NCBI RefSeq assembly: GCF_023276355.1
Contig: NZ_JALLPL010000003.1
Coordinates: forward strand, 1-64,000
DNA from: Haloplanus sp. XH21
GTDB lineage: Archaea > Halobacteriota > Halobacteria > Halobacteriales > Haloferacaceae
Direction: 5' to 3'
Length of the DNA: 64,000 nucleotides
Shown here: piece after piece, positions 10,157 to 39,401 of the stretch
How positions within the stretch are numbered: the stretch's first letter is position 1
Layout: each line of letters begins with the position of its first letter
Position numbers and translations under genes: made by a program
Notes under the pieces: model-generated
Databases searched by the model: none
Told to the model about the DNA's origin: nothing
Seen by the model: the letters and a program-made list of their open reading frames with translations, nothing else

Positions 10157-10856
10157 GGTCGTGTTAACTTTGGCATCGATTCCACCAGACAGCGACGGCT
10201 TGGAGCCACGTTTCTGCTGTCGTCGGCTCCACATGGCTGAACGTATTTGAAAACGAAGAGGTTCGTCGTTTTACTTCTCTAAAGATACATTCGACGGCAT
10301 TCCGATTGCCATGGCGTTCGTATCTGCAATCAAGGCCGTGTCGATCGAGGGCTGTTTGAAGCCATTGGGTGCCATCGACGAGAAACACAGCGGTTTCAAC
10401 ATCGTGTTTCTCGCGTAATTCACTCAGGAAAATTTCGGTAAAACCGGCCGTACACGTGCTAAAGAGCCGAATATGAAGGAACATGTTCGTTTCAGGATCG
10501 ATGGCGGCGTATAGCCAGTATTGCTGATCGTTGATTCGAATCACAGTTTTCGTCGAGCGCGACGTGATTCGGGCTCGCACCGCCTTCGGGCTGTAGATCG
10601 GCCTTCTGCACCCAGTTGTGGACGGCCGTTCGAGAGCGTTCGACACCCAACCTCTCAAGAATAGAGATGGTGTTCGAAAGTGATAGTCCAGCCAAATGGA
10701 GTCGGATACCAAGCCGCATCGCGAACTCGGGTGTCCGCTGACGCTCCACAAAATCTAATTCGATCCAGTCGCTACCGTCGCTGAGGCGTGTGATTTCTGG
10801 CATAGAGCACTACGAAATCACCACGCCTCACTCTTCACGCTTAACTTGACACGACC
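10157..10856 (-). mobile_element. IS6-family insertion sequence, copy B (700 bp, defective)
   Basis: The same element as copy A in reverse orientation: ends GGTCGTGTTAACTTTGG (from 10157) and, read inwards, GGTCGTGTCAAGTTAA (to 10856). It is one base longer than copy A, matching the frameshift in its transposase. The flanking 8-mers CAAGATCT and CAAAATAG do not match. The pair A/B brackets about 6.3 kb of truncated and intact genes. Confidence 0.85.
10164..10803 (-). pseudogene. IS6-family transposase with frameshift
   Basis: The first frame (10803 to 10492) gives MPEITRLSDGSDWIELDFVE...HVALDE and then leaves frame. The second (to 10164) continues TVIRINDQQYWLYAAIDPETN...NAVECIFREVKRRTSSFSNTFSHVEPTTAETWLQ. 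The break is in GACGAAAACTG, which has an extra A relative to GACGAAACCG in copy A. The break falls directly at the first catalytic DE, so no active enzyme is expected without frameshifting. Confidence 0.85.
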
Positions 10857-10908: not shown

Positions 10909-12888
10909 ATGGCACAAGTTAGCACCCCTGAAGTCGAGCATCCACTTGACCCCCTGACGGCATCCGAAATCGAACTGACGACCGATATCTTGGAGGGTCA
11001 TGACCAGGTGACCGACGACGTCGGCTTCTACAGCTACCAGCCGGTCGAACCTCCAAAGGGCGAACTCGACGGGTGGGACGAGGGCGAGCCGTTCGACCGG
11101 AAGGTCAAGGCGGTCCTCCGGAACTTTGAGAAGAGAGAGACGTATGAGGCTGTGATCTCGCTCGACGACGACGAGATCATCTCCTGGGAACGCCTCCCCA
11201 ACGCCATCCCCCACATCCCGGACATGGACGTCCGCGAGGCCGAGGAGACGATCATCGAAAACGAAGAGTTCCGTGACGCCGCCCGCAAGCGAGGTGTCGA
11301 GGAGTTCGATCACGTCATCGTCGACCCGTGGCCGGTCAACGCCAGCGAGTTCGTCCCCGACGACATCGAGGACCGACGGCTCGCGCGGGGCATCTCCTGG
11401 GTCGGGCGCGACGAGAAGGACAACGCCTACTCCCGCCCGCTCGAGGGTATCCACGTGTTCATCGACCTCGACGACATGGAGGTCCTGGAGGTCGTCGACA
11501 ACGGGGTCGTCGACGAGGACAGCCCGCTCCCGCCCGAGCGGGCGGACTTCCGAGCCGACCAGGTTGACACCCGCGACACCCGCGAACACCTCGATGTCGT
11601 CCAGCCCGACGGCGTCAGCTGGGAGGTCGATGGTCGCGAGGTCGAATGGGAGAAATGGTCGTTCCGCGTCGGCTGGACCGACCGCGAGGGGCTGGTGCTC
11701 CACGACATCTCCTACGACGACGACGGCGAGGAGCGTCAGATCCTCCATCGACTGTCTGCGACGGCGATGGCCGTTCCCTACGGCGATACCGATCCTAACC
11801 ACAGCTGGAAGAACGCCCTCGACATCGGCGAGTTCAACGTCGGCCGCATGGTCAACTCGCTGGACGAGGGCTGTGACTGCCTGGGTGTGATGCACTACTT
11901 CGACGCCGTCACCAACGACCGGGACGGCAACGTTCTGCATTTCCCCAACGCCATCTGTATGCACGAGGAGGACGACGGCCTCCTCTGGAAGCACACGGAG
12001 GTCCGCAAGGGCAACACCGAAGTCCGCCGCCGTCGCCGGCTTGTCATCTCCCAGATCGCCACGGTGTACAACTACGACTACGCGTTTTACTACTACTTCT
12101 ACCAGGACGGCCGCATCGAGGCGGAGATGCGCCTGACCGGCATCGACTCCAACGGCGTCGTGCCCGAAGGGACGACCGCCGACGACACGGGCGGGTTCTA
12201 CGAGATCTCCGCTCCGCAAATCAAGACCTCCCTCCACCAACACTGCTTCAACTTCCGGATGGATTTCGACATCGACGGCGAGGACAACTCCGTCTACGAA
12301 GTCCACAACGAACCGGTCGACGAGGTAGCCTGGACCCACGAGGAGTCCGAGAACCCCGCCGGCCAGGGTTGGTACATGGACGAGACGCTGCTGGAGACCG
12401 AACAGGACGCCCGCATGGACATCGATCCCAACCGGGGTCGGTACTGGCAGGTCGTCAACCCGAACAAGGAAAGCGCCTACGGCTACAATCCGGGTTACAA
12501 ACTCCACCCCAAGACGAACGTCGAGACGCCAATCCAGAGCGGGGCTCCCGCACGGCGGCGGGCAGGCTTCCTCGACAACGACTTCTGGGTGACGCCGTAC
12601 GACCCCGACGAAATGTACGCGGACGGCGAGTACCCGACCCAGAATGACAATCCCTCGGGTCTGCGCGAGTGGACCGCTCAGGACCGCAACATCGTCAACG
12701 AGGACGTGGTCCTGTGGTACACGCTGGGCGTCAACCACCGCACCCGGCCCGAGGACTGGCCGGTGCTGCCCGTCGAGGTGGCCAGCTTCGAACTCGCACC
12801 TGAAGGGTTCTTCGACGAAAACCCGGCAGTCGACGTGGCACCCGAACCCGCTGCCTGCGAACACGACGTCACCGCCGACGACGATTGA
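10909..12888 (+). CDS. Copper amine oxidase (primary-amine oxidase)
   Basis: 659 residues, family length. It oxidises primary amines to aldehydes, ammonia and H2O2 using copper and the self-made cofactor TPQ. Visible hallmarks: catalytic base Asp332 in MHYFDAVTND; TPQ precursor Tyr389 in VYNYDYAF; copper ligands His443 and His445 in LHQHCFNF; and His610 in GVNHRTRPEDWPVLP. No signal peptide is seen, so it is probably cytosolic. Copy B of the IS ends 52 nt upstream, and an A+T-rich AAAATATAATA at about 10868 may be its promoter. The dimethylformamidase genes lie 1 kb downstream, suggesting amine or amide use. Confidence 0.95.
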   Translation: MAQVSTPEVEHPLDPLTASEIELTTDILEGHDQVTDDVGFYSYQPVEPPKGELDGWDEGEPFDRKVKAVLRNFEKRETYEAVISLDDDEIISWERLPNAIPHIPDMDVREAEETIIENEEFRDAARKRGVEEFDHVIVDPWPVNASEFVPDDIEDRRLARGISWVGRDEKDNAYSRPLEGIHVFIDLDDMEVLEVVDNGVVDEDSPLPPERADFRADQVDTRDTREHLDVVQPDGVSWEVDGREVEWEKWSFRVGWTDREGLVLHDISYDDDGEERQILHRLSATAMAVPYGDTDPNHSWKNALDIGEFNVGRMVNSLDEGCDCLGVMHYFDAVTNDRDGNVLHFPNAICMHEEDDGLLWKHTEVRKGNTEVRRRRRLVISQIATVYNYDYAFYYYFYQDGRIEAEMRLTGIDSNGVVPEGTTADDTGGFYEISAPQIKTSLHQHCFNFRMDFDIDGEDNSVYEVHNEPVDEVAWTHEESENPAGQGWYMDETLLETEQDARMDIDPNRGRYWQVVNPNKESAYGYNPGYKLHPKTNVETPIQSGAPARRRAGFLDNDFWVTPYDPDEMYADGEYPTQNDNPSGLREWTAQDRNIVNEDVVLWYTLGVNHRTRPEDWPVLPVEVASFELAPEGFFDENPAVDVAPEPAACEHDVTADDD

Positions 12889-13296: not shown

Positions 13297-13354
13297 CGTT
13301 GAACGGATCGTCCTTCTGCATTGATATCAAAAGTTGTGCACATAGTAACATGGT

Positions 13355-13430
13355 CGTGGCTGCGCGCGCAGCGACCCGCGGGAGCGAGCACGGAGTGGTG
13401 GGAGGGGCGGTGGGGCTTGGGCTGGTCTGG
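13355..13430. repeat. GC-rich element downstream of OB-fold gene, copy 1
   Basis: About 75 bp beginning GTGGCTGCGCGCGCAGCGAC, then GAGCGAGCACGGAG and GGGGCGG..GGG. It recurs at 43306-43379. Both copies lie just beyond the 3' end of an OB-fold gene or its remnant. It may be a shared 3' UTR/terminator structure or a mobile tag. Confidence 0.6.
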
Positions 13431-13468
13431 CGTCCAATAAAAAACGGGGAGACTACGTCAACCTACGA

Positions 13469-13790
13469 CTCCCACCACCGCTCACGATCCAGGAACACGA
13501 TCGGCTCGTCGACGTCAATGCGATCGACCACCGGCCACGATACTAGCTCACCTTCGCCGCCCGGATCCGCATGCGTTCGCCTTTTCGCACCGTCGGTTGA
13601 TCGCTCTTCGTCCACACCGTGAACTTCGTGCGCGCCGTCTCGTCACCGATCAGCCCGGCCTGCTGTACCGACCCGTCTGTCTCGAACAGCGTCTTTACTT
13701 CGCGCTTAAGGCTCACCTCGCCGCGATCCACTTCGAGTACCTGCTCAATCTTCCGAGGAGCAACTCCACGCTGACCAACTGATTCTCAAA
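13469..13790 (-). pseudogene. OB-fold (RPA-like) protein remnant
   Basis: The minus strand carries KIEQVLEVDRGEVSLKREVKTLFETDG, SVQQAGLIGDETARTKFTVW and GERMRIRAAKVS, then a stop. In a shifted frame it continues SWPVVDRIDVDEPIVFLDRERWWES. This parallels EKLEDVDRKEVSIEGRVETLW...GERIRIHKAARNWY...RGRWWE of the gene at 43412-43921. The N-terminal third is missing and the frame is broken. It was a nucleic-acid-binding OB-fold protein common on haloarchaeal plasmids. Confidence 0.7.
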
Positions 13791-13907: not shown

Positions 13908-14513
13908 ATGTTCTTGAATGATAATTTCAGTGAGTGGTACACTGGCATGACAGAACTCAGCCAAATAACCGACGAAGACGTACCGAGACGAATTGTCGAT
14001 GAAGATGAGTACTACGAGATCATCGGGAGCACGTTCGCTAATCGTGCAGAAGTTGATGTGAGCAAATACGAGGCGAGTCTTTCAGAGATAGGTCGACAGA
14101 TCATGTCTACTGCTGGTGGGCCACTCTCTGCACCAGCACAACAGGCCTTTGAGGAGCTTGACGAAAATATCGCTGAAGAGCAGATACTGCCGTTGATCGA
14201 TGAAGAATTGATCCAAGAACACCGTGACAATCCTATCGGAGCTCATAGCGATGATCTAGAGCGTGTTCTGAATTACTTCAGACGGCAACCGATGAGCGGC
14301 AAGTATGTGATCCTTGAAACTGAGAAGTTCGAGACCTTCTATATCGGCCAGCTCACTGGTAACAGGGGAGATAAGCCAGAAAAACTGGAGGATCCGCTCT
14401 CGTCGATCGACGAAGCGGACCATCTCCCCTATCCGCTGACATCGGTCGAACAGGCCGAACATGCTGTCTTCTTGAAGCGTGTGGATGACCTGCGATCCCA
14501 GTTTTCCGATTAA
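13908..14513 (+). CDS. dmfA1: N,N-dimethylformamidase small (alpha) subunit, N-terminally extended
   Basis: 201 residues. The C-terminal 105 residues match, from memory, the small subunit of bacterial dimethylformamidase (132 aa): EEHxxNPxGxHSxxLxRVxNYFRxQPxxGKYxI...E.AEHAVFLKRVDDLRSQ. Here this reads IQEHRDNPIGAHSDDLERVL, NYFRRQPMSGKYVILETE and EQAEHAVFLKRVDDLRSQF. The N-terminal about 95 residues are extra. ATG 13908 is used; ATG 13947 is an alternative. The large subunit follows after 18 nt, so the two are co-transcribed. The A+T-rich region 13845-13900 holds a TATA-like CATATTAGATA. Confidence 0.8.
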   Translation: MFLNDNFSEWYTGMTELSQITDEDVPRRIVDEDEYYEIIGSTFANRAEVDVSKYEASLSEIGRQIMSTAGGPLSAPAQQAFEELDENIAEEQILPLIDEELIQEHRDNPIGAHSDDLERVLNYFRRQPMSGKYVILETEKFETFYIGQLTGNRGDKPEKLEDPLSSIDEADHLPYPLTSVEQAEHAVFLKRVDDLRSQFSD

Positions 14514-14531
14514 AACACACTCAAAATAACA

Positions 14532-16844
14532 ATGACAACCGACGACCTTCCCACGAAAGAGATCACTGGCTACACTGACCAGTGGAGTTTCCAGCCAGGC
14601 GATACCGTACCGTTCAGAATCAACTGCGTTCCAGATGAGTATGAAGCGGAGATCGTCCGCGTCTATTGCGGGGACCTCAACCCTGAGGGGCCAGGCGTGA
14701 AAGAGGAAGTGATTGATGCCCCGGTGAACGACACGTATGATGGGCGAGTACAACAGATCCATGCTGGCTCCTATGCAAAAATTCCGGATGACCCGCATCT
14801 CAATCCAGAGGATGGGCTGACCCTGCAGGCGATGGTGCAACCCACCCTCCCAGAGAGAGGCACGCAAGCGATACTCAGCAAATTTTCTGACGGGGCGGGA
14901 TACGGCCTCTACGTCGGAGAGGATGGTGACCTCTGTCTGCGACTCGCCGGTTCCGATGGCGACGTTGAAGAGGTAGCGACTGGTCTCTCGTTCGAGGGCG
15001 GCAAGCGGCAAGGAGCGACGTGGTACTTCGTTGGTGCAACATTCGACTCGGAATCGGGCGAGGTCATGCTCTATCAGGAGCCCCACCATGAGAGCCAACG
15101 TAAGCTCCTTCATCCGCTTGACGAGTACGAGGCTGTGGTCGAAGAAACGGTGAGTATCGACGGGATCGCAGCGAACGAATCTCCCTTCATGATCGGCGGA
15201 GAACCGATGGAACTCGACGACGGGACGTTCGTCGCTGAGAGCTGTTTCAACGGAAAAATAGAACGCCCGCGAGTGTTCAGTGAGTTGCTCGACCTCGCGG
15301 ACATGCGCTCTGCCATTACCGGAACTGCACCCGCCGATGTGGCCAGTTCGCTGGCGGGCGCATGGGACTTCTCCGAAGAGATCTCCTCCAATGGCATCCC
15401 GGAATACACAGACGTCTCCGATGCCTCACCACACGAGAACCATGGCGAATTGATCAACACTCCTGCGCGGGGGATGACTGGATACAACTGGAGTGAAGAC
15501 GAATACAACTTCACTAATGCGCCGGAGGAGTACGGTGCGATACACTTCCACCACGATGACCTGACGGACGCAGATTGGGAGTTGGACTTTGAGTACACCC
15601 TCCCGGACGGTTTGGAGAGTGGGGTGTACGCTGCCAGACTGCGCACTGACGATGATGAATTTTATATTCCCTTCTTTGTGCGTCCGGCGAGTCCGGAAGA
15701 CACTGCACCAATCGCGTTCCTTGCGCCGACCGCCAGCTATCTAGCCTACACAAACGATCACTTGACGACAGATGGAGTGATCACTGAACCGCTGTCGGCA
15801 CAGGTATCGGTTATGCGGGAGGAGGACATCTTCCTGAGCGAGCACCGTGAATATGGGCTTTCTCTGTACGATAGTCATGCCGATGGCAGCGGCATCATGT
15901 ACTCTTCGCGGAAGCGACCGGTAATGAATATGGTGCCGAAGTATAAACATTGGCTCTCCTCGGTCCCGAGCACCCTGTGGCAATTCAACGCCGATCTTCA
16001 CATCGTCGACTGGTTGGAAGAAATGGGATACGAGTATGATGTCGTGACCGACGAAGATCTCTATGAGGAAGGGTCTGATCTACTAGAACCGTACAACGTT
16101 GTGTTGACCGGAAGCCATCCGGAGTATTACTCCTCGGAAATGTGGGATGGCGTAGAAGCCTACCAACGGCAGGGCGGCCGATTCATGTACATGGGCGCAA
16201 ACGGCTTCTACTGGTCAATTGCGTTCCATCCCCAAGATTCCCAGATCATTGAGGTCCGACGGGGAATCACGGGTTCAGGGGCGTGGTTCAACAACCCCGG
16301 AGAAATGCGGCACAGTTTCACCGGCGAGATGGGCGGTATCTGGCGGGACCGCAACAAACCCCCACAGAAGATCGCCGGAGTCGGCTGGATTGCTGAAGGA
16401 TTCGACAAGTCTTCATATTACATGCGGAAGCCGGATAGTTACGAGCCGGAAACGGAGTTCATTTTCGAGGGAATCGAAGATGAACAGCTCGGTGATTTCG
16501 GCCTGATCGGACACGGGGCTGCTGGCCTCGAACTCGATATCTACAACGAGGATCTCGGCACCCCTGAAAACACGTACTTATTAGCTTCTTCGGAAGATCA
16601 CACGCCAAACTACCTGCGGGTCGTCGAAGAAATTTTCTTCAATCTCCCGTACTATGGGGGCCCCGACGATCCTGAAGCGCGTGGTGATATCGTCTACTAT
16701 AAACTGCCGAACGATGGGGCCGTCTTCTCGACTAGCTCCATTGGGTTCCACGGAAGCCTCTCACATAACGACTATGACAATAACATCTCTCAGATGATAG
16801 AAAATGTGCTGGATGAATTCGTGAAGGACGAACCACTCCCGTAG
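14532..16844 (+). CDS. dmfA2: N,N-dimethylformamidase large (beta) subunit
   Basis: 770 residues, the size of the bacterial large subunit. The enzyme hydrolyses N,N-dimethylformamide to dimethylamine and formate using a mononuclear iron site. Residues about 100-260 form a LamG/concanavalin-like insert (LTLQAMVQPTLPERGTQAIL...GARLxF-type pattern ending IERPRVFSELL). The catalytic half follows, with PTASYLAYTNDH (Tyr403), EYGLSLYDSHADGSG (Tyr441) and GSHPEYYSSEMWD (Glu531). These fit the Tyr399/Tyr440/Glu521 iron ligands I recall for the Paracoccus enzyme. No signal peptide. Known family members are mostly bacterial, so this archaeal pair is notable. Confidence 0.9.
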   Translation: MTTDDLPTKEITGYTDQWSFQPGDTVPFRINCVPDEYEAEIVRVYCGDLNPEGPGVKEEVIDAPVNDTYDGRVQQIHAGSYAKIPDDPHLNPEDGLTLQAMVQPTLPERGTQAILSKFSDGAGYGLYVGEDGDLCLRLAGSDGDVEEVATGLSFEGGKRQGATWYFVGATFDSESGEVMLYQEPHHESQRKLLHPLDEYEAVVEETVSIDGIAANESPFMIGGEPMELDDGTFVAESCFNGKIERPRVFSELLDLADMRSAITGTAPADVASSLAGAWDFSEEISSNGIPEYTDVSDASPHENHGELINTPARGMTGYNWSEDEYNFTNAPEEYGAIHFHHDDLTDADWELDFEYTLPDGLESGVYAARLRTDDDEFYIPFFVRPASPEDTAPIAFLAPTASYLAYTNDHLTTDGVITEPLSAQVSVMREEDIFLSEHREYGLSLYDSHADGSGIMYSSRKRPVMNMVPKYKHWLSSVPSTLWQFNADLHIVDWLEEMGYEYDVVTDEDLYEEGSDLLEPYNVVLTGSHPEYYSSEMWDGVEAYQRQGGRFMYMGANGFYWSIAFHPQDSQIIEVRRGITGSGAWFNNPGEMRHSFTGEMGGIWRDRNKPPQKIAGVGWIAEGFDKSSYYMRKPDSYEPETEFIFEGIEDEQLGDFGLIGHGAAGLELDIYNEDLGTPENTYLLASSEDHTPNYLRVVEEIFFNLPYYGGPDDPEARGDIVYYKLPNDGAVFSTSSIGFHGSLSHNDYDNNISQMIENVLDEFVKDEPLP

Positions 16845-16895: not shown

Positions 16896-17627
16896 TCAGC
16901 TGCTTACTTGAATATTCTCAAGGAGCCCCCAAGTGCCCACCACGAGTAGTATACCACCAATCACTGACACGATGCCCGACTGTGCTACGTCGGGTAGTCC
17001 TCCAGTCGCCATGCCGAGTGCCCCCGTCACGATGAGAAGGGCTTGGATGCCGGTCGCACGGGCGAGTGCCCCCCGTGGCGACGATTCAAACCGGTCGGCG
17101 TAGACGACCGCAATTTCGACGGCGGCGTGGGCCGTTATAACGACGGATGTCATGACCCCGACGCCGGTTCCGGAGAGGTACGCGGCCCCCAGAGCGAACC
17201 CCTCAATTGCCCTGTGAACGCTAACACTTCCAGTCGCCACGGTTCCCCTCAGACCAATGGGGTTCCTTGATTTCAATATCACCGTCGTTCCAATGAGTGT
17301 CATTCCGACTGTCGTCCCCACTAGGCCGACTATTGATACGTTATGGATGAAAGGAAGCACGAGGCTCACCCCGATCAGCGCAACCAATATGTGGATTCCA
17401 CGATCCAAGAGTTGGCCCCACTGAGACAGGAATCGCCAGCCTACTCGAGCCAGCGTAACACCGCCGACGAGACCGCCGATCCCAGAGACAAAAAGGAGCG
17501 GCCAGAATGGAACGGCGGCGGCGTCCCCAAGGCTCCCATGAGCGACCGCTGGCCGGGTACACATCAGGATCAGCAACCACGGGGGTAATACCCGAAGCAG
17601 GCAATTGAACCCGGTGATCCGTGTCAT
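16896..17627 (-). CDS. ZIP-like metal transporter/membrane protein
   Basis: 243 residues, mostly hydrophobic, about seven or eight helices. The N-terminus (MTRITGFNCLLRVLPPWLLILM...AVAHG) looks like a first membrane or signal segment. VSVHRAIEGFALGAAYL and TAHAAVEIAVVYAD resemble the paired HxxxEG and H.xxE metal-binding helices of ZIP transporters. ZIP proteins import zinc, iron or other divalent cations. The match is by motif only. It is convergent with the dimethylformamidase operon. Confidence 0.6.
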   Translation of the reverse strand: MTRITGFNCLLRVLPPWLLILMCTRPAVAHGSLGDAAAVPFWPLLFVSGIGGLVGGVTLARVGWRFLSQWGQLLDRGIHILVALIGVSLVLPFIHNVSIVGLVGTTVGMTLIGTTVILKSRNPIGLRGTVATGSVSVHRAIEGFALGAAYLSGTGVGVMTSVVITAHAAVEIAVVYADRFESSPRGALARATGIQALLIVTGALGMATGGLPDVAQSGIVSVIGGILLVVGTWGLLENIQVSS

Positions 17628-17851
17628 GAACTATAATCTAATTCAAGTTGGTCTAAATATATTTCTATCCTAAGGGTAGTGCTCCAATTAGCTAATCCCA
17701 TGCGAAGACAATACCTGCAACCAACTTTTGGTAGTGCTCGATTTGGCGCGATTAAATATATTGGTCGTGTCGCAAAGTCCTCTAGAGTTCAGTAGCAACT
17801 GACTCCCGTGAGGACGGAGTCACCTCTGGTGTCCATCCCACGAGGTGTCCC

Positions 17852-18190
17852 ATGCACGCCACAATCGACGTGCGGTTCACGATTAGCATCGACGAGGCCA
17901 AAACGATTCCGCTCGCCACGGTCGCCGAATTCGTCACCGAGCAGAACGTCGAGTCGGTCTTGGTGGAAGCCGTGGTCGAGAGCCTCGACGATCTCGTCGG
18001 TCTCGTGGCGGATCGACGCGACGGTCCCGATGTCCTCGTGGTCGCCACGCGCGAACTGTACGCGCTCGGTGACGAACGACCGCGCGTCGTCCTCTCCCGG
18101 CTCAACGTCCTCGATCGTCGGCACTGCGTCGGTCGCATCCGACCGGGCGAGCAGGCGCTCGACCACGTGGCGGCGCTCGATGACCACATC
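17852..18190 (+). pseudogene. Possible haloarchaeal transposase N-terminal remnant
   Basis: The plus frame begins MHATIDVRFTISIDEAKTIP, LATVAEFVTEQNVESVLVEA and VVESLD, which resembles, from memory, the start of a haloarchaeal IS transposase. After VESLD the similarity is lost and the frame wanders into low-quality sequence. The opposite strand is also open (17789-18187) and was weighed as an alternative, but has no recognisable motif. Low confidence. Confidence 0.35.
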
Positions 18191-23054: not shown

Positions 23055-23282
23055 TTACGACTCGGAGTCGTCTCCGGGCTGCCGTTTTCCATCGTCGATA
23101 ATCTTGTAGAGGCCTCGACCGACCGGATGGATCTGTCCGTGCTCATGGAGTCGGGCACACGTTTGGTCGACCGTGATCGGATGCTGATCTGCAGTGCGGG
23201 CGATGTCCATGACATGGAGCGGCGACTCATCCCCGAGTATAGCCAGGACTTCCCGGTCGAGTTCGCGACCAATGTCACTCAT
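23055..23282 (-). CDS. Small winged-helix protein
   Basis: 75 residues from ATG 23282 (MSDIGRELDREVLAILGDES). An HTH fold is suggested by PLHVMDIARTADQHPITVDQTCARLHEHGQIHPVGRGLYKI. Longer starts at 23345 and 23360 would overlap TFB by about 70-85 nt; from 23282 the overlap is 8 nt, typical of coupling. It therefore appears to be co-translated with TFB and could modulate it or bind the same promoters. Confidence 0.65.
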   Translation of the reverse strand: MSDIGRELDREVLAILGDESPLHVMDIARTADQHPITVDQTCARLHEHGQIHPVGRGLYKIIDDGKRQPGDDSES

Positions 23283-24318
23283 CACATCCGTTGCTCGGCC
23301 AGCGGTCGCTTCCTTCTCCTGACGCGATTCTGCATGCTTGGTCATCACGCGTAGCCCCACTCTCTGCGTAGACCTCCAGCAGTTCCTGGTAGCGATTCCG
23401 AATCGTAACCCGGCTCACGTGGGCCGCGTTGCTCACCGTCTCCTGTGTCAGTTGTTCGTTCGTGAGGTGCGTCGCCGCGTAGAGTGCGGCTGCGGCGAGT
23501 CCGGCAGGACTTTTCCCACTATGTGCGCCCGCTGCCTTTGCCGTGGTGAGGAGATCGCGCGCTTGACGCACGGCCTCGTCGCTCACATCGAGTGCTGACG
23601 CGAACTGAGGGACGTATTCCAGGGGATCCGCTGGTTCAATCTCTAGTCCGAGTTCCCTGGAGATATATCGATAGGCTCGCTGAATTCGGATTTCTGCGAC
23701 ACGACTGACCTCAGCGAATTCAGCCAGCTGTCGGGGCGTCCCGTGTTGTCTGGCTGCGGCGTATAGTGCGGCTGTTGCCATGCCTTCGATGGACCGGCCC
23801 GGCAGGAGATCTTCTTCGACTGCCCGTCGATAGATCGCTCCTGCCGTCTCTCGAACTGGGTCCGGAACATCGAGGGCGGATGCCATCCGACTGATCTCGC
23901 CGAGTGCCTGTTTGAGATTCCGCTCGTGGGCGTCTTTCGTTCGGAACCGTTCGTCCCACGTGCGAAGCCGCTGGAGGCGGGCTCGCTTCCGGCCGGATAC
24001 CGATTGGCCGTACGCATCCTTGTCTTGCCAGCTGATCGTCGTACTGAGCCCCTTATCGTGCATGAGCTGGGTGGTCGGCGCGCCGACACGGCTTTTCTCG
24101 TCGTTTTCGTCGCTATGGAACGCCCGCCACTCCGGCCCACGGTCGATGGAATCCTCGTCGAGGACCAAACCGCAGTCGTCGCAGGTCGTCTCTCCGTGCT
24201 CATGGTCCTGCACGATCTGCCCGTCGCACTCCGGACACGATGAGAGCGACTGAGATTCGGTGACCGACTGCCCGTCATCTGTGCGGTCGTCTTCGATATC
24301 GAGTTGTGTTTTAGTCAT
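23275..24318 (-). CDS. tfb: Transcription initiation factor IIB (TFB)
   Basis: 347 residues. The N-terminal zinc ribbon is CPECDGQIV...TTCDDCGLVLDEDS (about 28-53). The B-finger/reader region is GPEWRAFHSDENDEKSRVGAP. Two cyclin repeats follow, marked by GRSIEGMATAALYAAARQHGTPRQLAEFAEV and SPAGLAAAALYAATHLTNEQLTQETVS. TFB recruits RNA polymerase to TBP-bound promoters. Haloarchaea carry several TFBs with different promoter sets, and this is a plasmid-type extra copy beside copper genes. A palindrome shared with the copper promoters lies 85-113 nt upstream. Confidence 0.95.
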   Translation of the reverse strand: MTKTQLDIEDDRTDDGQSVTESQSLSSCPECDGQIVQDHEHGETTCDDCGLVLDEDSIDRGPEWRAFHSDENDEKSRVGAPTTQLMHDKGLSTTISWQDKDAYGQSVSGRKRARLQRLRTWDERFRTKDAHERNLKQALGEISRMASALDVPDPVRETAGAIYRRAVEEDLLPGRSIEGMATAALYAAARQHGTPRQLAEFAEVSRVAEIRIQRAYRYISRELGLEIEPADPLEYVPQFASALDVSDEAVRQARDLLTTAKAAGAHSGKSPAGLAAAALYAATHLTNEQLTQETVSNAAHVSRVTIRNRYQELLEVYAESGATRDDQACRIASGEGSDRWPSNGCDE

Positions 24319-24402
24319 GGATGCTGGGGTTCAGTACTGACGTTCGCTCACTCTGAATGGGTCTCTCTAACAATGGTGGGGGTCGGTAGTCGAAGAGCAT
24401 GC

Positions 24403-24431
24403 GGCGGAATCCCAGGCTTTGGGAATCTGCC
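24403..24431. promoter_or_regulatory. 29-bp palindromic operator, copy 1 (upstream of TFB)
   Basis: Arms GGCGGAATCCC and GGGAATCTGCC are separated by 7 nt. The same structure recurs at 25100-25128. The consensus is GGCGGAWTCCC and GGGAWTCYGCC with a 7-nt centre. It lies upstream of TFB, likely a dimeric regulator site. Confidence 0.65.
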
Positions 24432-24524
24432 AATATGATTTACCATCACCAAATGAAAAATGCTAGCTCAGAAAAGTGGCCACGTCTCCTCGCAAAGTTT
24501 CAGCCAGTATATGGTGTGCTGTCG

Positions 24525-25064
24525 TCACCCAGAGAAGTCGCTGTACGACACCGCACCCTGGTCGACGATTGTCTGGCTCTCGGGGACCTCTCCGTCTGGC
24601 GGCATACTCCCTTCAGCTGGGCCGCCGGGTTCACCCACGACGATGCGGCCGATCATGCCGAGACCCTTGTGCGGGGTACAGAAGTAGTCGTACGTCCCTT
24701 CGGTCTCGAATGTATGTTCAAACGTTGCGCCCTGTTCGCTGATGATCCCACTGTCGAAGGTTTCAGCCCCGTCTGGGATACGTGTAACTGACGCCTGTCC
24801 TGTCCCCTTCTTGTACGCTGTCGCAGAGTGGCTTCCGCTGTCGATCTCGAACGTGATCGTCTCGCCGGATTCGACGAGGAGCCCGATCGGATCGAAGTAA
24901 TAGTCGCTTCCCTCGGTGACCATCAGAACGGTGTTCGTTCCCCCGTTCGTCGGTGAATCCGTCTCACCGCTTGCGTCGGGGTTCGAACTACTACAGCCAG
25001 CCAGCCCGGTGAGACCGGCGGTTGCAGCGATTCCACCTGCTTTCAGGACCTGTCGACGCTCCAT
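24525..25064 (-). CDS. Halocyanin/plastocyanin-like blue copper lipoprotein
   Basis: 179 residues. The N-terminus MERRQVLKAGGIAATAGLTG with LAGCSSS is a Tat-type signal with a lipobox cysteine, so the protein is exported and lipid-anchored. The cupredoxin domain shows SGSHSATAY with the first copper His and YDYFCTPHKGLGMIGRIVV with Cys, His and Met ligands. It should carry electrons outside the membrane. It is divergent from the multicopper oxidase over a shared 29-bp palindrome. Confidence 0.9.
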   Translation of the reverse strand: MERRQVLKAGGIAATAGLTGLAGCSSSNPDASGETDSPTNGGTNTVLMVTEGSDYYFDPIGLLVESGETITFEIDSGSHSATAYKKGTGQASVTRIPDGAETFDSGIISEQGATFEHTFETEGTYDYFCTPHKGLGMIGRIVVGEPGGPAEGSMPPDGEVPESQTIVDQGAVSYSDFSG

Positions 25065-25099
25065 ACCTGATTATCGGAACGCCACTGATAGACCACTTG

Positions 25100-25128
25100 G
25101 GCGGATTCCCACCCCTCGGGATTCCGCC
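25100..25128. promoter_or_regulatory. 29-bp palindromic operator, copy 2 (cupredoxin/MCO divergent promoter)
   Basis: Arms GGCGGATTCCC and GGGATTCCGCC are separated by 7 nt. It lies 36 nt upstream of the cupredoxin start and 42 nt upstream of the oxidase start, overlapping the expected core-promoter zone for both. It matches the site at 24403. Confidence 0.7.
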
Positions 25129-25169
25129 ATCGGTTGACTATCGCTGCTCTCGAAATTCTACCCATAGCA

Positions 25170-26993
25170 ATGAGTGATCGCCTCGGAACGTCCGGAACTG
25201 GCATCTCACGGCGAGAATTCATCGCAACGGCGGGCAGTGCTGGCGCGGTGAGTCTCGCGGGGTGTGCAGCCTCGACCGGTAGCACAGAGACTCCGGTCCC
25301 AGCCACCCCCACTGCCCATTCGTCGCCCGACCTGGAAAAGTGGGTCGAGGAAGTCCCTCGGCCAGGTGTCGTGGAACCGGTCGGGACGAAGGACGGGAGC
25401 CCGTATTACGAGGTGGAAATGCGCGAGGTTGAGCAGGAAATCCATCCTGATATTCCCCCGACGACCGTCTGGGGATACGATGGCCAGTACCCAGGGCCGA
25501 CGATCGAGGTTCGGCAGGGTGACCCAGTATACGTGCGCTGGAAGAACAAGCTGCCGGACGAGCATCTCCTGCCGGTCGATACGACCATACACAGCAGCAC
25601 GATTCCCTACGACAGTACCGGCGTGCGGGTCGTGACTCACCTCCACGGCGGGAACGTCGAGCACACGAGCGACGGCAAGCCGAAGGCGTGGTTCACGCGG
25701 AACTTCGAGCACACCGGCCCGAAGTTCGAGAAGAAGGACTACTACTACGTCAACGACCAGCCCCCGGCCACGCTCTGGTATCACGACCACTCGCTCGGCA
25801 TCACTCGACTGAACGTCTACGCCGGTCTCGCCGGACTCTACCTCCTCCGGAACGATCACGAGGAGTCTCTCGGTCTGCCGTCGGGCGAGTACGAGATTTC
25901 ACTGGTGCTCCAGGACCGCAGCTTCAACGAGGACGGTTCGTTGTTCTACCCGACCGCCGTCTCCGGCACGGACGGCGACTCGCCGAATCCCGACCCGAGC
26001 ATCGTTCCGCAGTTCTTCGGCGACACGTCCGTCGTCAACGGGAAGGCCTGGCCGCGGCTTTCGGTCGACCCCCGGAAGTACCGATTCCGGATCCTCAACG
26101 GTTCGAACTGCCGGTTCTATAACCTCAAGCTGTTCGAGTACGACGAGTCGGACGGAACGACCGGCACGGGCGGGCCACCGTTCACCCTCGTCGGCAACGA
26201 CGGTGGCCTCCTGGCCTCACCGGTCACGATCGAGGAGCGACTGGAGATCGGCACGGGCAAGCGTGCCGACGTCGTCGTTGACTTCTCGGACTACGCCGGA
26301 CAGACGCTCCTGTTGCACAACGACGCCGCGGCGCCCTACCGTGGACCGAACATCAATACCGGGGGTCAACAGCCGCTGCCGGAAGTGATGCTCATCGACG
26401 TCGCAGCCGGTGATATCGACGACCCTAGCCAGGTTCCGAATACGCTGACGGACGTGCCCGACATCCCCGTCGACTCGGTTACCGAGGAACGGTATCTCCC
26501 ATTGACCATGAGTACCGACGACTACGGACGACGATTGCACCTCCTGGGTTCGGATGCGGAGTCCTTGCCCCACAGGCTGTACGACCCAGCTACCGAGGAG
26601 CCCATCCTTAACGACACGGAAATCTGGAGCTTCGCGAATCAGACAGGCACGTCCCACCCGATGCATCTGCACCTCGTGCACTTCCAGGTGCTCGGGCGAC
26701 AGCCGTTCAGTGAGTACGACCCCGAAGCGGAGACGATCGATGTCGAGGCCCTCGAATCCCCCGCATCGGAAGAAACTGGCTGGAATGATGTCGTCACGGC
26801 GAACCCGGGAGAGGTAACCCACGTGCTCGTGCACTTCGGCGAGTTTGAGGGCCTATTCAACGACCAGATCGGCTGGTATATGTGGCATTGCCATATGCTC
26901 GAACACGAGGACCACGACATGATGCGGCCCTTTAGAGTACTGCCGAGTGCTGACGAGGATATACGTGAACGACCTCATCATTCGGTGGACTAG
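25170..26993 (+). CDS. Multicopper oxidase (laccase/CotA-like), Tat lipoprotein
   Basis: 607 residues from ATG 25170, just before the Tat motif ISRREFIATAGSAGAVSLAGC; the longer frame from 25134 is less likely. The four copper motifs are present: VVTHLHGGNVEH, LWYHDHSLGITRLNVYAG, HPMHLHLVHFQVLG, and IGWYMWHCHMLEHEDHDMM with the type 1 Cys and Met. It oxidises phenolics, bilirubin-like compounds or Cu(I) with O2 reduced to water. It resembles the haloarchaeal laccase LccA type. Shares its promoter region with the cupredoxin gene. Confidence 0.95.
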   Translation: MSDRLGTSGTGISRREFIATAGSAGAVSLAGCAASTGSTETPVPATPTAHSSPDLEKWVEEVPRPGVVEPVGTKDGSPYYEVEMREVEQEIHPDIPPTTVWGYDGQYPGPTIEVRQGDPVYVRWKNKLPDEHLLPVDTTIHSSTIPYDSTGVRVVTHLHGGNVEHTSDGKPKAWFTRNFEHTGPKFEKKDYYYVNDQPPATLWYHDHSLGITRLNVYAGLAGLYLLRNDHEESLGLPSGEYEISLVLQDRSFNEDGSLFYPTAVSGTDGDSPNPDPSIVPQFFGDTSVVNGKAWPRLSVDPRKYRFRILNGSNCRFYNLKLFEYDESDGTTGTGGPPFTLVGNDGGLLASPVTIEERLEIGTGKRADVVVDFSDYAGQTLLLHNDAAAPYRGPNINTGGQQPLPEVMLIDVAAGDIDDPSQVPNTLTDVPDIPVDSVTEERYLPLTMSTDDYGRRLHLLGSDAESLPHRLYDPATEEPILNDTEIWSFANQTGTSHPMHLHLVHFQVLGRQPFSEYDPEAETIDVEALESPASEETGWNDVVTANPGEVTHVLVHFGEFEGLFNDQIGWYMWHCHMLEHEDHDMMRPFRVLPSADEDIRERPHHSVD

Positions 26994-34176: not shown

Positions 34177-34914
34177 TCATTGGTGGGTATCCAGAATTCG
34201 ACGTACGGTGACCTCGGCAAGCTGTGTGAAACCCACTGTATCCGGCATAACATCGACAGCGATCCCATGCTTGTCGACAGCACGTTTTGTTGGTGCTCCT
34301 ATCGCTCCAACAATCGTCTCCTCTAGCTCGCGTTGGAGTGCAGCGACAGCGTCACGTTCAGTCGCAATTTGAACGAAGTGCTCTACCGTCTTTGGCGAGG
34401 TGAACAGTATACCGTCCAGCTTACCGTCTACCGCAAGTGAGACCGACTGTCCCGCAGTCTCCGGTCGTTCCAAGCGATATAAGGCTGTTTCGCTGACAAT
34501 TGCACCAGCTGCTTCCAGTCCTTCAACAAGTACTTCGCTGCCGTGTGCACTTCGAGCAAGTTCAACGGTTTGGCCCTCGACATCAGTAAATAACTCGTCG
34601 ACGAGTCCTGTGGAAGTGAACGTCGATGGAACGATATCGACTGAATAGCCCCGATTGCATAATGCGGTTGCAGTCTGATCCCCGACAGCACAAACAGTGG
34701 CTCCTCGTTGTTTCCATCCCGCTGTCGCAGCTAGATCGACACCGGTCTCGCTTGTGAAGATACAGTAATCCGCATGTTGGGGAACCTGACCGGTCGGTGT
34801 GATTGCCAGCATCGGATCTGGAATCGGGGATACATCGAGTGACTGGAGATACTCGACCGCCTCAACGATACGGCTGTCGTCGGGTCGGAGAACAGCCACC
34901 GTCGGCTGGGACAT
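34177..34914 (-). CDS. hemD: Uroporphyrinogen-III synthase-like protein
   Basis: 245 residues with the two-lobe HemD pattern: MSQPTVAVLRPDDSRIVEAV, YCIFTSETGVDLA, ATVCAVGDQTATALCNRGYS, VELARSAHGSEVLVEGLEAAG, GILFTSPKTVEHFVQIA and VGAIGAPTKRAVDKHGI. HemD cyclises hydroxymethylbilane in heme and corrinoid synthesis. A stand-alone HemD away from other hem genes suggests an extra or relocated copy. Divergent from the deoxyhypusine synthase gene. Confidence 0.85.
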   Translation of the reverse strand: MSQPTVAVLRPDDSRIVEAVEYLQSLDVSPIPDPMLAITPTGQVPQHADYCIFTSETGVDLAATAGWKQRGATVCAVGDQTATALCNRGYSVDIVPSTFTSTGLVDELFTDVEGQTVELARSAHGSEVLVEGLEAAGAIVSETALYRLERPETAGQSVSLAVDGKLDGILFTSPKTVEHFVQIATERDAVAALQRELEETIVGAIGAPTKRAVDKHGIAVDVMPDTVGFTQLAEVTVRRILDTHQ

Positions 34915-35005
34915 ATTGAACAGTTAGCCGATGCTGGACTTGTGTGTATCGAGAATCGGCGACCAGTCTCGAACGATTCAAACCGGCATCCTGCTAATTG
35001 CCGGT

Positions 35006-35980
35006 ATGGACGACGAGTCTCACGACCACGTTGTTCCGGGAAGTGATGAAGAGTTGGCCACGCCAGACGTGCAGGGCTACGACTTCAGTGGCGAATTCGA
35101 TTTTCAGGAGATGCTGGAAGCGTATGCAACGACGGGCTTTCAGGCGACGCAACTCGCAGAGGCCATCGACATCGCCGAGCAAATGCAAGACGCCGATGCC
35201 ACGATCTATCTCACATGCACGTCGAATATCATCTCGTCGGGATTGCGTGAAGTCGTCGCCTACCTCGTTCGTGAAGGGTACGTCGACGTGCTTATCACGA
35301 CCGCGGGATCGCTGGCGGAGGATGTTATCAAAACGGCGAAGCCGTTCAAAATGGGAGAGTGGGATGTGGACGAGGCCGCGCTCCGGGAACAAGGAATCAA
35401 CCGTCTTGGGAATCTCTTTGTTCCTTCCGACCGATACGTCTGGTTGGAAGAGTACCTGTACGACTTCTTCGAGGAGTTCTTTGCCGAGGAAAAGGTTCGG
35501 ACGCCGACGGCGTTTGCCCGCGAGTTAGGGGAGACACTCGACGATCCGGATTCAGTTCTGAAACAAGCAGCGGACCACGACGTTCCCGTGTACTGTCCGG
35601 CACTGACAGACGCCGAGGTTGGGAACTTCCTCTATTATTACCGACAAGGATACGATTCGGAGGTTGGCATCGAGATTCTCGACGACTACGACTCGCTCAT
35701 CGAGGACGGGATGCTCGCCGACACGACGGGTCTGATCGCAGTCGGAGGGGGCGTCCCGAAACACCATGCGATCATGACGAATCTGTTCCGCGGCGGGGCG
35801 GATTATGTCGTCTACATCTCGACTGGTATGGAAGGGGATGGCTCACTCTCTGGAGCGCCCCCGAACGAGGCAGTATCATGGGGGAAAATCAAAGACGATG
35901 AGCAGACGAATTACACGCAGGTCGAAGCAGAGGCGACGCTCGTCTTCCCACTGCTCGTGGCGGGTGCTTTCAGCGAGTGA
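35006..35980 (+). CDS. dhs: Deoxyhypusine synthase
   Basis: 324 residues from ATG 35006 (MDDESHDHVVPGSDEELATP); ATG 34931 would add an unlikely N-terminus. The NAD-binding/active-site motifs are LTCTSNIISSGLREVVAYLV, TTAGSLAEDVIK, GGGVPKHHAIMTNLFRGGADYV and PPNEAVSWGKIKDDEQT, with the WGKI lysine that forms the enzyme-butylamine intermediate. It transfers a butylamine unit from spermidine to eIF5A. Core archaeal gene; its presence in an accessory region suggests relocation or a second copy. Confidence 0.93.
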   Translation: MDDESHDHVVPGSDEELATPDVQGYDFSGEFDFQEMLEAYATTGFQATQLAEAIDIAEQMQDADATIYLTCTSNIISSGLREVVAYLVREGYVDVLITTAGSLAEDVIKTAKPFKMGEWDVDEAALREQGINRLGNLFVPSDRYVWLEEYLYDFFEEFFAEEKVRTPTAFARELGETLDDPDSVLKQAADHDVPVYCPALTDAEVGNFLYYYRQGYDSEVGIEILDDYDSLIEDGMLADTTGLIAVGGGVPKHHAIMTNLFRGGADYVVYISTGMEGDGSLSGAPPNEAVSWGKIKDDEQTNYTQVEAEATLVFPLLVAGAFSE

Positions 35981-36012: not shown

Positions 36013-38448
36013 TTACTCCGAGTGAGCGGGAGATCCAAGTTGATCGTTGCCTTCTCTGGAGGCGGTCGCAGCCACCTGATCTCCGTTCGCCGGGAGCAGG
36101 CGGCGCTTCGAGTTGAAGACGACAATGAGACTGCTGATAGCCATCATAACGGCGGCGATCAACGGCGTGATTACGCCAACTATTGCCAGTGGGAGTGCGA
36201 TCGCGTTGTAGCCAGCCGCCCAGAGGAGGTTCTGTTTGATTCGGCTCCGAGTGTCACTCGCCAGTCCGAAGAGTTCGGGAACAGCGCCGAGACGGTCGTC
36301 CAGCACCACCGCATCGGCCGCCTCAATCGCAAGTTCGGTGCCGCTTGAGACCGCAATCCCGAGGTCTGCGCTGGCGAGTGCGGGCGCGTCGTTCGTCCCA
36401 TCACCGATCATCGTTGTTGTTCCGCGCTCGCGGAGTCCCTGGACGATTGCTTCCTTGGACTCGGGGCGCACACCTGCAAATACGTGATCGATCGCTGGAT
36501 GGTTCGCGAACGTCTCGGTCATCCGCTCGTCGTCGCCGGTCAGTACGACGATTTCTCGACCCCCATCCGCGAGATCGGAAACCACGCGGTCCCAGTTCTC
36601 ACGGGGCGTATCTCGGACCGTGACGATCCCGTGGACGACGCCTTCCCATGCGACCGCCGTGGGATGCGTGCCCGACTCGTAGGCGTCCGTGACGGCGGCC
36701 TCGATATCCGCAGAGATCGTCCACTCGTCGTCGGTGAAGGAGTCGGGATGGCCAACTATCACGCGGGTATCGTCGACGAGCGCCGATACGGTACGGTCGG
36801 AACGCTCGAAGCTCGATACCGAGCGTGTGGTTGGCGGGGCGGCGTCGTCGATCGCAGCGGCGATAGGGTGGCTCGATCGGCGCTCAACGGCAGCCGCCAT
36901 TGCAAGCACTTCGTCGGGGGTGTCGCCAACGACGTCTGCGAGTTTCATTTCCCCCGTTGTGAGTGTCCCTGTCTTGTCGAATACGACGATTGAGGAGTCG
37001 TCGATCCGTTCGAGTACCGTCTCGTTGAGAACGAGCATCCGATTGTCGGTGGCATCGCGAGTGGCCGCCGCGAGGGCAAGCGGGGTCGCGATCCCGAGCG
37101 AGCACGGACACGAGACCACTAACACGGAGACACCGACTAGTATGGCTGTATTCAAGTCGTTGCCAAGGGCGAACCAGCCAGCGGCAGTCAGCGCGGCGAG
37201 TCCGAGTACGAGCGGGACGAACAGCACTGCAAAGCGGTTGACAATACGCTGGACGCCCGTTGCCGAACTCTTGACGTTCCAGAGGAGTTCGACGAGACGA
37301 TCCATCGTGCTGGTGGCATCTGGGCCAACTTCGACGACAATCGCGCTGTCAGTGAGAATCGATCCCCCGAGTACGCTGTCCCCGACGGATTTGCGTTGCG
37401 GGAGCGATTCGCCTGTGACGAGCGCTTCGTCGATCGCGGCAGTCCCGTCGACGATCTGGCCGTCGACTGGGATCCGTTCGCCAGGTTTGACTAACAGCCG
37501 ATCGCCGGGCTCACACTCTTCTATTTCGATGGTTTCGGTGGCCTCGCTGCCGTTGTCGAGCCGGCGGGCCTCATCAACGCGTGAATCAGTGAGGTCAGCG
37601 CGATTGCCGAGCGCAGCACGTTTGACTTGTGACTCGAGATGGTTGCCGATAGTGACGATCGCGAGCACCATCACTGCGACGTCGAAGTACGGGTCGCGCC
37701 CGCCCGTGAGATAGGTGGCCATCGAGTAGAGATACGCGGCGAGCACCGCGATGGCGATCAATACGTCCATATTCGGGCGACCGACTTTTAAGCTCACGTA
37801 GGCACCGCGGAAGATCGGGTATCCAAGCCCGATGACAATGAGCGTGCTCCAGACCGCTAGCGGCCCGAACACCATCGCCTCAACGGTACTCCCGTAGAGG
37901 AAGCTCTCAGGATAGATGCCGAGATACACTGGATAGATGAATAGGACGTAGAGAATCAACACAGGCATCATCAGTAACGCCGCGAGCACCGCACGGTATT
38001 TGCCGAACTCGACGCGCGAGCGCAGCGAGTCGTTTTCCTCGTCGGGACCGTGGGCCTGATAGCCCAGTCGACTTAGTGCAGCGGCGATCGTGTTGCGATC
38101 GATACGGTCTGGATCGTACACCACCTGCGCCATTTCAGTCGCGTAGCTCGCACGCGCCTCATGAACGCCCTCCTCTTCCTCAGCAAGGAGTTCGATGAAG
38201 CCTTCGCAGGTCTGACAGTGCATGCCGTCGATCGAGAGATACGCCGTTTCGGCATCCTCAGGGACATCGGATTGAGAATCCCCGGCCTCGACACGGTCAC
38301 GGACGGCCGCAATCGAGAGGTCGACATCCTCACCGTTGTCAACCAAGCGTGCAACCTCTAGACAGCCCCGACAGCAGAATTTGCTGTCGGTGTTCTCGTC
38401 GGTGATTGGGTCTTCGACAGGGAGCTCACAGAGTGTGCAGGTGGACAT
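36013..38448 (-). CDS. Copper-type P1B ATPase (CcoI/FixI-like)
   Basis: 811 residues from ATG 38448 (MSTCTLCELPVEDPITDENT). An N-terminal Cys-rich module (CTLCEL...KFCCRGCLEV) precedes an HMA domain with the metal-binding pair GMHCQTCEGF. Eight transmembrane helices include the CPC motif VVSCPCSLGIATPLALA. The phosphorylation site is FDKTGTLTTGE, the hinge MIGDGTNDAPALASADLGIA. The Cys-rich front resembles FixI/CcoI pumps that export copper for oxidase assembly. It begins 1 nt after the SafE-like gene, so they form an operon. Confidence 0.93.
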   Translation of the reverse strand: MSTCTLCELPVEDPITDENTDSKFCCRGCLEVARLVDNGEDVDLSIAAVRDRVEAGDSQSDVPEDAETAYLSIDGMHCQTCEGFIELLAEEEEGVHEARASYATEMAQVVYDPDRIDRNTIAAALSRLGYQAHGPDEENDSLRSRVEFGKYRAVLAALLMMPVLILYVLFIYPVYLGIYPESFLYGSTVEAMVFGPLAVWSTLIVIGLGYPIFRGAYVSLKVGRPNMDVLIAIAVLAAYLYSMATYLTGGRDPYFDVAVMVLAIVTIGNHLESQVKRAALGNRADLTDSRVDEARRLDNGSEATETIEIEECEPGDRLLVKPGERIPVDGQIVDGTAAIDEALVTGESLPQRKSVGDSVLGGSILTDSAIVVEVGPDATSTMDRLVELLWNVKSSATGVQRIVNRFAVLFVPLVLGLAALTAAGWFALGNDLNTAILVGVSVLVVSCPCSLGIATPLALAAATRDATDNRMLVLNETVLERIDDSSIVVFDKTGTLTTGEMKLADVVGDTPDEVLAMAAAVERRSSHPIAAAIDDAAPPTTRSVSSFERSDRTVSALVDDTRVIVGHPDSFTDDEWTISADIEAAVTDAYESGTHPTAVAWEGVVHGIVTVRDTPRENWDRVVSDLADGGREIVVLTGDDERMTETFANHPAIDHVFAGVRPESKEAIVQGLRERGTTTMIGDGTNDAPALASADLGIAVSSGTELAIEAADAVVLDDRLGAVPELFGLASDTRSRIKQNLLWAAGYNAIALPLAIVGVITPLIAAVMMAISSLIVVFNSKRRLLPANGDQVAATASREGNDQLGSPAHSE

Positions 38449-38449
38449 G

Positions 38450-39277
38450 TTACGCAACCGCCTCCGATTCGGCGATCGGTTGATAGTACGGAATGTCGGG
38501 CAACGGGAGCATGACGCCAAACCGCATGAGTCCCATCGCTAACAGGACGTATCCGAGCCCGATGAACAACACACCGATTCCATAGTGGACCACCTGTCGC
38601 TGGCGGGCGCTCACGGACTGGATTACCGTTCCGTAGAGGAACACGCTGGGGATCGTCCCAAGCCCGAGCGCGCCGAGCGAGAGGAGGCCATATACAGGCG
38701 AGCCCTGTGCGAATGCGTACAGGAATGCGGGATAGAGAAGCATACACGGCAACAGTCCATGAAGCGCGCCGAGACCAACGATACCGACGCCGTTGACCCA
38801 GCGGTCGATCCGCGTTGAGATGACTGTGTAGGTTCGCGCGAATACGGATCCGATGCCAGTACCGGCAATCACACCTTCAACGGCTCCTTGTTGATAGCCG
38901 GCTAACCGTGTAAATCCCATACCGAGGATTGCCACGCCGATGCAGATGCCGACGATACCCTGGACTGGCCCGAGAATTCCGGCGAGCCCGATGGTTCCGT
39001 AGAGCAGCGCGCCGGCAGTCCCGAAGACAGCTCCGATAAGAGCGTAGCTCATCGTCCGGCCGAGGTTGAACAGCGTGTGCTGACGCACTTCATAGAGGGT
39101 GAGTGCGCCCGACCAGCGGTCATCGGTTTCCATTCTCTCGGCGTAGGTTGTAACGAGCGGACCGCACATTCCAATACAGTGTGCACCGCCGAAGAGGCCA
39201 ATCAGGAAAAACACTACCAGTCCGTAGCCGCTTGTGACACCAATCTCACTCAGTTGTACTAGGACTGCCGATCTCAT
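38450..39277 (-). CDS. SafE/UreH-like membrane protein (CcoI partner)
   Basis: 275 residues from ATG 39277 (39301 possible). Six or so helices. The hallmark LFGGAHCIGMCGPLVTTYA at the first helix is the GxxHCxGMCG motif of the TauE/SafE-annotated, DsbD-like membrane family that sits beside ccoI in many bacteria. A second conserved helix is GLGALHGLLPCMLLYPAF. It may bind or pass copper to the ATPase encoded next. Operonic with it (1-nt spacing). Confidence 0.85.
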   Translation of the reverse strand: MRSAVLVQLSEIGVTSGYGLVVFFLIGLFGGAHCIGMCGPLVTTYAERMETDDRWSGALTLYEVRQHTLFNLGRTMSYALIGAVFGTAGALLYGTIGLAGILGPVQGIVGICIGVAILGMGFTRLAGYQQGAVEGVIAGTGIGSVFARTYTVISTRIDRWVNGVGIVGLGALHGLLPCMLLYPAFLYAFAQGSPVYGLLSLGALGLGTIPSVFLYGTVIQSVSARQRQVVHYGIGVLFIGLGYVLLAMGLMRFGVMLPLPDIPYYQPIAESEAVA

Positions 39278-39401
39278 ACTCGAGGCTGGCAGAGCCAGCA
39301 TAGATTAGAGTGTACAAATTGTCCTGTGTAGTGGGTTTTAGCGGAACCGGCTACCTCGTCGCCTGACTCGTCGCAAGTACTCTCGGATTTCGACGCCACA
39401 G

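Follow-up and report, generated by a model that had tools for sequence, protein, structure and literature searches.

Do archaea possess the two-subunit N,N-dimethylformamidase (DMFase) known from Paracoccus and, if so, is DMF the amide that it hydrolyses? This question is raised by two neighbouring genes in the stretch of DNA analysed here, called the window (positions 1–64000 of a 103,840-base contig). The contig is plasmid-like and belongs to a genome of 2.94 Mb whose relatives are haloarchaea, Halalkalicoccus being of the same order. The original prediction, made from the DNA letters, saw in the pair a complete archaeal DMFase with a modified small subunit. We find that the two genes almost certainly encode a two-subunit amidase of the DMFase family and that, judged from their sequences, they are probably a complete and functional haloarchaeal member of it. 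As far as the substrate is concerned, we lean towards a main substrate other than DMF. The explanation that best covers the whole, and that we hold with reasonable confidence, is a two-subunit iron amidase acting on a small N-substituted amide, with a possible coupling to an amine oxidase. The pair adds a solid member to a known enzyme family and is not a novel type of system. With it an unusual family of iron enzymes, whose ligands are two tyrosines and one carboxylate, reaches into the halophilic archaea in its two-subunit form, and work on amidases and bioremediation gains a natural high-salt homolog. A literature search found no paper on an archaeal DMFase.

The gene pair and its locus

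The two ORFs are consecutive, read in the same direction and only 18 bases apart, an operon-like arrangement (Table 1); both are found where the original prediction had placed them. On pAMI2 of Paracoccus a LuxR-family gene precedes dmfA1, whereas none is apparent upstream of the pair in the window. Remnants of transposase genes of the IS6 and ISH6 types (10164–10803 and about 17752–17990) flank the block formed by the amine oxidase and amidase genes. The convergent membrane protein that follows the pair has no match in a Pfam search and is not kept beside the pairs of the relatives, and a palindrome search gave nothing useful. Elsewhere in the window, genes for a HemD-type uroporphyrinogen-III synthase and a deoxyhypusine synthase, which normally have core functions, stand side by side in divergent orientation (34177–35980), and copper-related genes (for a plastocyanin-like protein, a multicopper oxidase, a heavy-metal P-type ATPase and a DsbD-like protein) are found together with a TFB gene at 23275–26993 and 36013–39301.

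Table 1. Features of the amidase locus (window coordinates)
Feature	Position and length	Strand	Evidence or remark
Small (alpha, DmfA1-like) subunit, ORF from ATG 13908	13908–14513, 201 aa	+	
Small subunit, probable start M14	13947–14513, 188 aa	+	6LVB_B, E=4.1e-10; profile–profile 99.9%; alignment with Halalkalicoccus MSEL
Small subunit, N-terminal extension (residues 14–74 of the window protein)	13947–14129	+	Alignment; helices in a low-confidence model
Large (beta, DmfA2-like) subunit	14532–16844, 770 aa	+	6LVB_A; PF20254, E=1.5e-91; Laminin_G_3; ligands Y406, Y446, E531
AGAO-like copper primary-amine oxidase, a possible partner	10909–12888	+	PF01179, E=3.4e-151; PRK11504 over cut-off
Gene fragment, haloarchaeal plasmid DNA-binding protein	13349–13671	-	Separates the amine oxidase gene from that of the small subunit; does not belong to the enzyme
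Convergent membrane protein	16896–17627	-	Context only

The large subunit and its catalytic residues

The large subunit is matched over its full length by that of the Paracoccus enzyme (residues 11–770 against 6–760 of 6LVB_A, E=3.4e-173, about 40% identity). The N-acetyl-(R)-beta-phenylalanine acylase 8HUY is also a full-length relative, with a weaker match (E=1.7e-129). The three-domain layout (Ig-like, pentraxin-like and PF20254) is found at the sequence level, in the full-length alignment to 6LVB_A and in Pfam matches to Laminin_G_3 and DMFA2_C; an AlphaFold model built from a four-row alignment had a pLDDT of 44, too poor for use.

In the published structure 6LVB, the iron is held by Y399, Y440 and E521, H519 is essential, N547 lies nearby in the active site and F693 is contributed to the pocket by a neighbouring subunit. 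An alignment of 36 family sequences places the three ligands at Y406, Y446 and E531 of the window protein, and H519, N547 and F693 at H529, N557 and F703. Throughout this alignment the two tyrosine ligands and the histidine are invariant, and the glutamate and asparagine nearly so (the glutamate is missing in one duplicated copy, and aspartate replaces the asparagine in the pAMI5 protein). The original prediction had named Tyr403, Tyr441 and Glu531 as ligands; it was right about the glutamate, but the two tyrosines align to Y396 and Y435 of 6LVB, and the ligand positions are Y406 and Y446. Indeed, Tyr441 cannot be a ligand, because its equivalent Y435 is replaced by Phe, Val, Ile or Leu in many relatives. 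As read from this alignment, the catalytic residue set of the window large subunit is complete. It should be noted that the large subunit is present twice, in tandem, in Aminobacter sp. MDW-2; in the second copy (L051:8426-10747) the glutamate ligand has become an alanine, which makes this copy a probable catalytically dead paralog.

We propose that the two subunits would assemble, probably as an alpha2beta2 complex, into an amidohydrolase whose large subunit would hold a mononuclear Fe(III) through Y406, Y446 and E531. The iron would polarise the carbonyl and a bound water, with the help of H529, and hydrolysis of an N-substituted amide would then yield a carboxylate and an amine. The role of the small subunit would be to stabilise the complex and to help to form the entry for the substrate.

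Purifying selection acts on both genes. A comparison of the window with Halalkalicoccus gives, for codon positions 1/2/3, 0.14/0.08/0.57 differences per codon in the large-subunit gene and 0.31/0.19/0.59 in the small-subunit gene, the synonymous divergence being saturated. The region is broken up by insertion-sequence and plasmid gene fragments and the pair has a patchy distribution among haloarchaea, as might be expected of an inactive or decaying plasmid passenger; yet with both ORFs intact, all of the catalytic residues kept and this codon pattern, such a fate for the pair is hardly credible.

The small subunit and its N-terminal extension

Residues 90–199 of the small subunit match 6LVB_B (E=4.1e-10). 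Searches of Pfam and NCBIfam with this protein showed that no family exists for it there. The similarity to the bacterial small subunits, which the original prediction drew from a short core motif, survives profile comparison: five haloarchaeal sequences compared with twelve bacterial ones give a probability of 99.9% and E=3.8e-31. Moreover, a fold search with a model of the small subunit returned 6LVV_B and 6LVB_B as the only significant matches, the model itself being of low confidence (pLDDT about 56–89 in the core and under 50 in the extension, where helices are seen). An archaeal, two-subunit enzyme with a complete catalytic set is thus supported by the matches to 6LVB_A and 6LVB_B, the residue alignment and the purifying selection.

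The small subunit of Halalkalicoccus begins with MSELEGV, which aligns to M14 of the window protein (MTELSQI); therefore, translation probably starts at 13947. Residue 17 of DmfA1 aligns to window residue 75, so that about 16 residues of DmfA1 precede the alignable part and, on balance, the window protein is longer than bacterial DmfA1 at the N-terminus by about 45 residues (by about 58 with M1 as the start). The original prediction had described an extension of 95 residues: the longer N-terminus is real, but its size was overstated. To it is added a 12-residue insert near residues 163–174, common only to the window and Halalkalicoccus proteins. Between these two, the amino-acid identity is 48% in the extension compared with 72% in the core.

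The extension is shared with Halalkalicoccus, exists in a shorter version in one further haloarchaeon (G130) and is absent from another (G764), whose small subunit has 133 residues. Because G764 is of the window's own genus, the extension is the trait of one sub-branch and not of halophily. The Paracoccus DMFase, which has no extension, is most active at about 2.5 M NaCl. These two observations speak against salt adaptation, one of the two reasons originally offered for the extension; the other, a different amide, remains the better of the two. It is the acidic composition and not the extension that, at the level of sequence, carries the salt signature: haloarchaeal large subunits have a pI of 4.2–4.5 and 15–19% D+E, against about 4.8–6.2 and 11–14% in bacteria.

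Distribution and phylogeny

PF20254 is found over its cut-off in 14 of the 391 sampled genomes of the class, with the full-length (~770 aa) DMFase-like form in only four. A search for the small subunit in 392 genomes of the order returned exactly the same four genomes, and a family-wide search added a fifth haloarchaeal pair, that of G764. At each of the five haloarchaeal loci, the small gene directly precedes the large one. A scan of genome contigs with the large subunit found only four bacterial relatives. Ten haloarchaeal genomes (L028-L037) have PF20254 in proteins that are for the most part shorter and resemble the window protein only remotely (E about 1e-8 to 1e-14 or worse).

The large subunits of the five haloarchaea group together in a single clade (support 100/98), outside that of the proven DMFases. 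Besides 6LVB, the DMFase clade comprises DmfA2 of P. aminophilus and the Methylobacterium DM1 protein, and proteins of Mycobacterium, A. vitis and Rhodococcus USK13 join it. 8HUY belongs to a third, distinct clade. Within the haloarchaea, the pair on plasmid 2 of Halalkalicoccus jeotgali B3 (WP_238532928/WP_238532929) is 82% identical to that of the window for the large subunit and 65% for the small one, with the same extension, the same insert and an adjacent copper amine oxidase.

Which amide?

A genuine DMFase would convert DMF to formate and dimethylamine as in Paracoccus, and we consider it unlikely that the window pair does so. The resemblance to Paracoccus DmfA1–DmfA2 extends to the two subunits, their gene order, the iron ligands, the histidine, the asparagine and the pocket phenylalanine, with identities of about 40% (large) and 32% (small). 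However, the window protein stands outside the DMFase clade, is acidic (pI 4.2 compared with about 5.1) and has the longer small-subunit N-terminus, and relatives at a similar distance do not use DMF. The dmfA1A2-like pair of P. aminophilus pAMI5, with 34/40% identity to DmfA1A2 and the same phenylalanine, is not linked to DMF use (PMC4543880), and AceAB, an acetamiprid amidase and two-subunit relative of DMFase that we compared by description and not by alignment, is reported to be inactive on DMF (PMC11573777). The DMFase name is therefore unproven. In addition, the DmmA-type dimethylamine monooxygenase family is absent from all five haloarchaeal genomes, that of the window included; in this search, which covered the DmmA family, we found no route for the dimethylamine that DMF hydrolysis leaves. 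The oxidase next to the pair is of the primary-amine type, and dimethylamine would not be expected among its substrates. As a statement about the substrate, 'N,N-dimethylformamidase' does not hold up against the position in the tree, the non-DMF relatives and the missing DmmA family. This automatic name spans a broad amidase family, and DMF activity needs testing for each member.

At the other end of the substrate range, the pair might be an acylase that acts on N-acylated amino acids or on comparable, larger amides. The ligands of 8HUY align over its full-length match, several bacterial relatives adjoin genes for D-amino-acid dehydrogenase, alanine racemase and polyamine/amino-acid transporters, and M20, M19 and FAD-dependent DAO-family genes lie near the haloarchaeal locus G313. 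We nevertheless find this improbable, more so than activity on DMF: the 8HUY clade is a separate one, and no small subunit was found upstream of its sampled members for which there is upstream sequence (L021, L076 and L078), which suggests that the 8HUY branch works as a single-subunit enzyme. Furthermore, the window protein keeps the pocket-narrowing phenylalanine where 8HUY has a serine. This residue, F703, is kept in the window, Halalkalicoccus and Rhodococcus USK13 proteins, in the DMFases and in the pAMI5 protein. Taken as a sequence feature it would argue for a small substrate, although its presence in the pAMI5 protein means that it is not diagnostic.

We favour the view that the haloarchaeal lineage has an amide substrate of its own, probably a small one, which need not be DMF. 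The simplest candidate would be an N-monosubstituted formamide or acetamide; the neighbouring copper amine oxidase would then oxidise the primary amine released from it. Formamidase-family genes are present in all five haloarchaeal genomes.

The neighbouring copper amine oxidase

That the amine product goes to this oxidase is a tentative idea, which we hold to be possible and somewhat short of probable. The Halalkalicoccus pair is also bordered by a primary-amine oxidase, which is divergent from that of the window and lies in the opposite orientation. On the plasmid of Rhodococcus sp. USK13, a distant primary-amine oxidase (39% identity) lies ~5 kb from the pair, beside an ethanolamine permease; as in the window, the small gene is upstream of the large one and the pocket phenylalanine is kept, whereas the protein belongs to the DMFase side of the tree, the small subunit has no extension and a gene for an AmiS/UreI amide channel comes after the pair. 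No linked amine oxidase was found at the G130, G313 and G764 loci (for G764, from inspection of ORFs and a partial Pfam analysis). Oxidases at least 70% identical are present in only 4 of 194 sampled genomes, among them the window genome and Halalkalicoccus.

In the oxidase tree, the enzyme of the window clusters with those of its own genus, that of Halalkalicoccus falling on another branch, so the oxidase/amidase neighbourhood may have formed more than once. A transfer of amine oxidase and amidase as one unit is unsupported by this grouping. The adjacency in the window may also be accidental, because a plasmid gene fragment separates the two. The boldest form of the proposal is that the haloarchaeal clade represents a distinct two-subunit Fe(III) amidase for an N-monosubstituted amide, its amine burned by the plasmid-linked oxidase and the extension acting as a docking or regulatory element; we rate this as less likely still than the coupling itself, if not as remote as a true DMFase.

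Permease fusions of the small-subunit domain

Plasmids of Agrobacterium, Rhizobium, Aminobacter and Ensifer (Rhizobiales) encode a LivM-type ABC permease that carries the DMFase small-subunit domain at its C-terminal end, and this fusion gene precedes the gene of the large subunit (L048:4308-5963, L054:4288-5946, L051:4275-5930 and L068:1952-3610). The fusion at L048 matches both PF02653 and 6LVB_B (E=5e-12). A literature search on such fusions gave nothing useful; they are possibly transporter-coupled amidases. Ensifer M8 has a separate small subunit in addition (L068:3607-4008). The Halalkalicoccus small subunit (L044:11440-11982) is annotated as an 'inner-membrane translocator'. We reject this name, since the haloarchaeal small subunits are short and acidic, without an obvious membrane stretch; it is probably an annotation carried over from the permease fusions.
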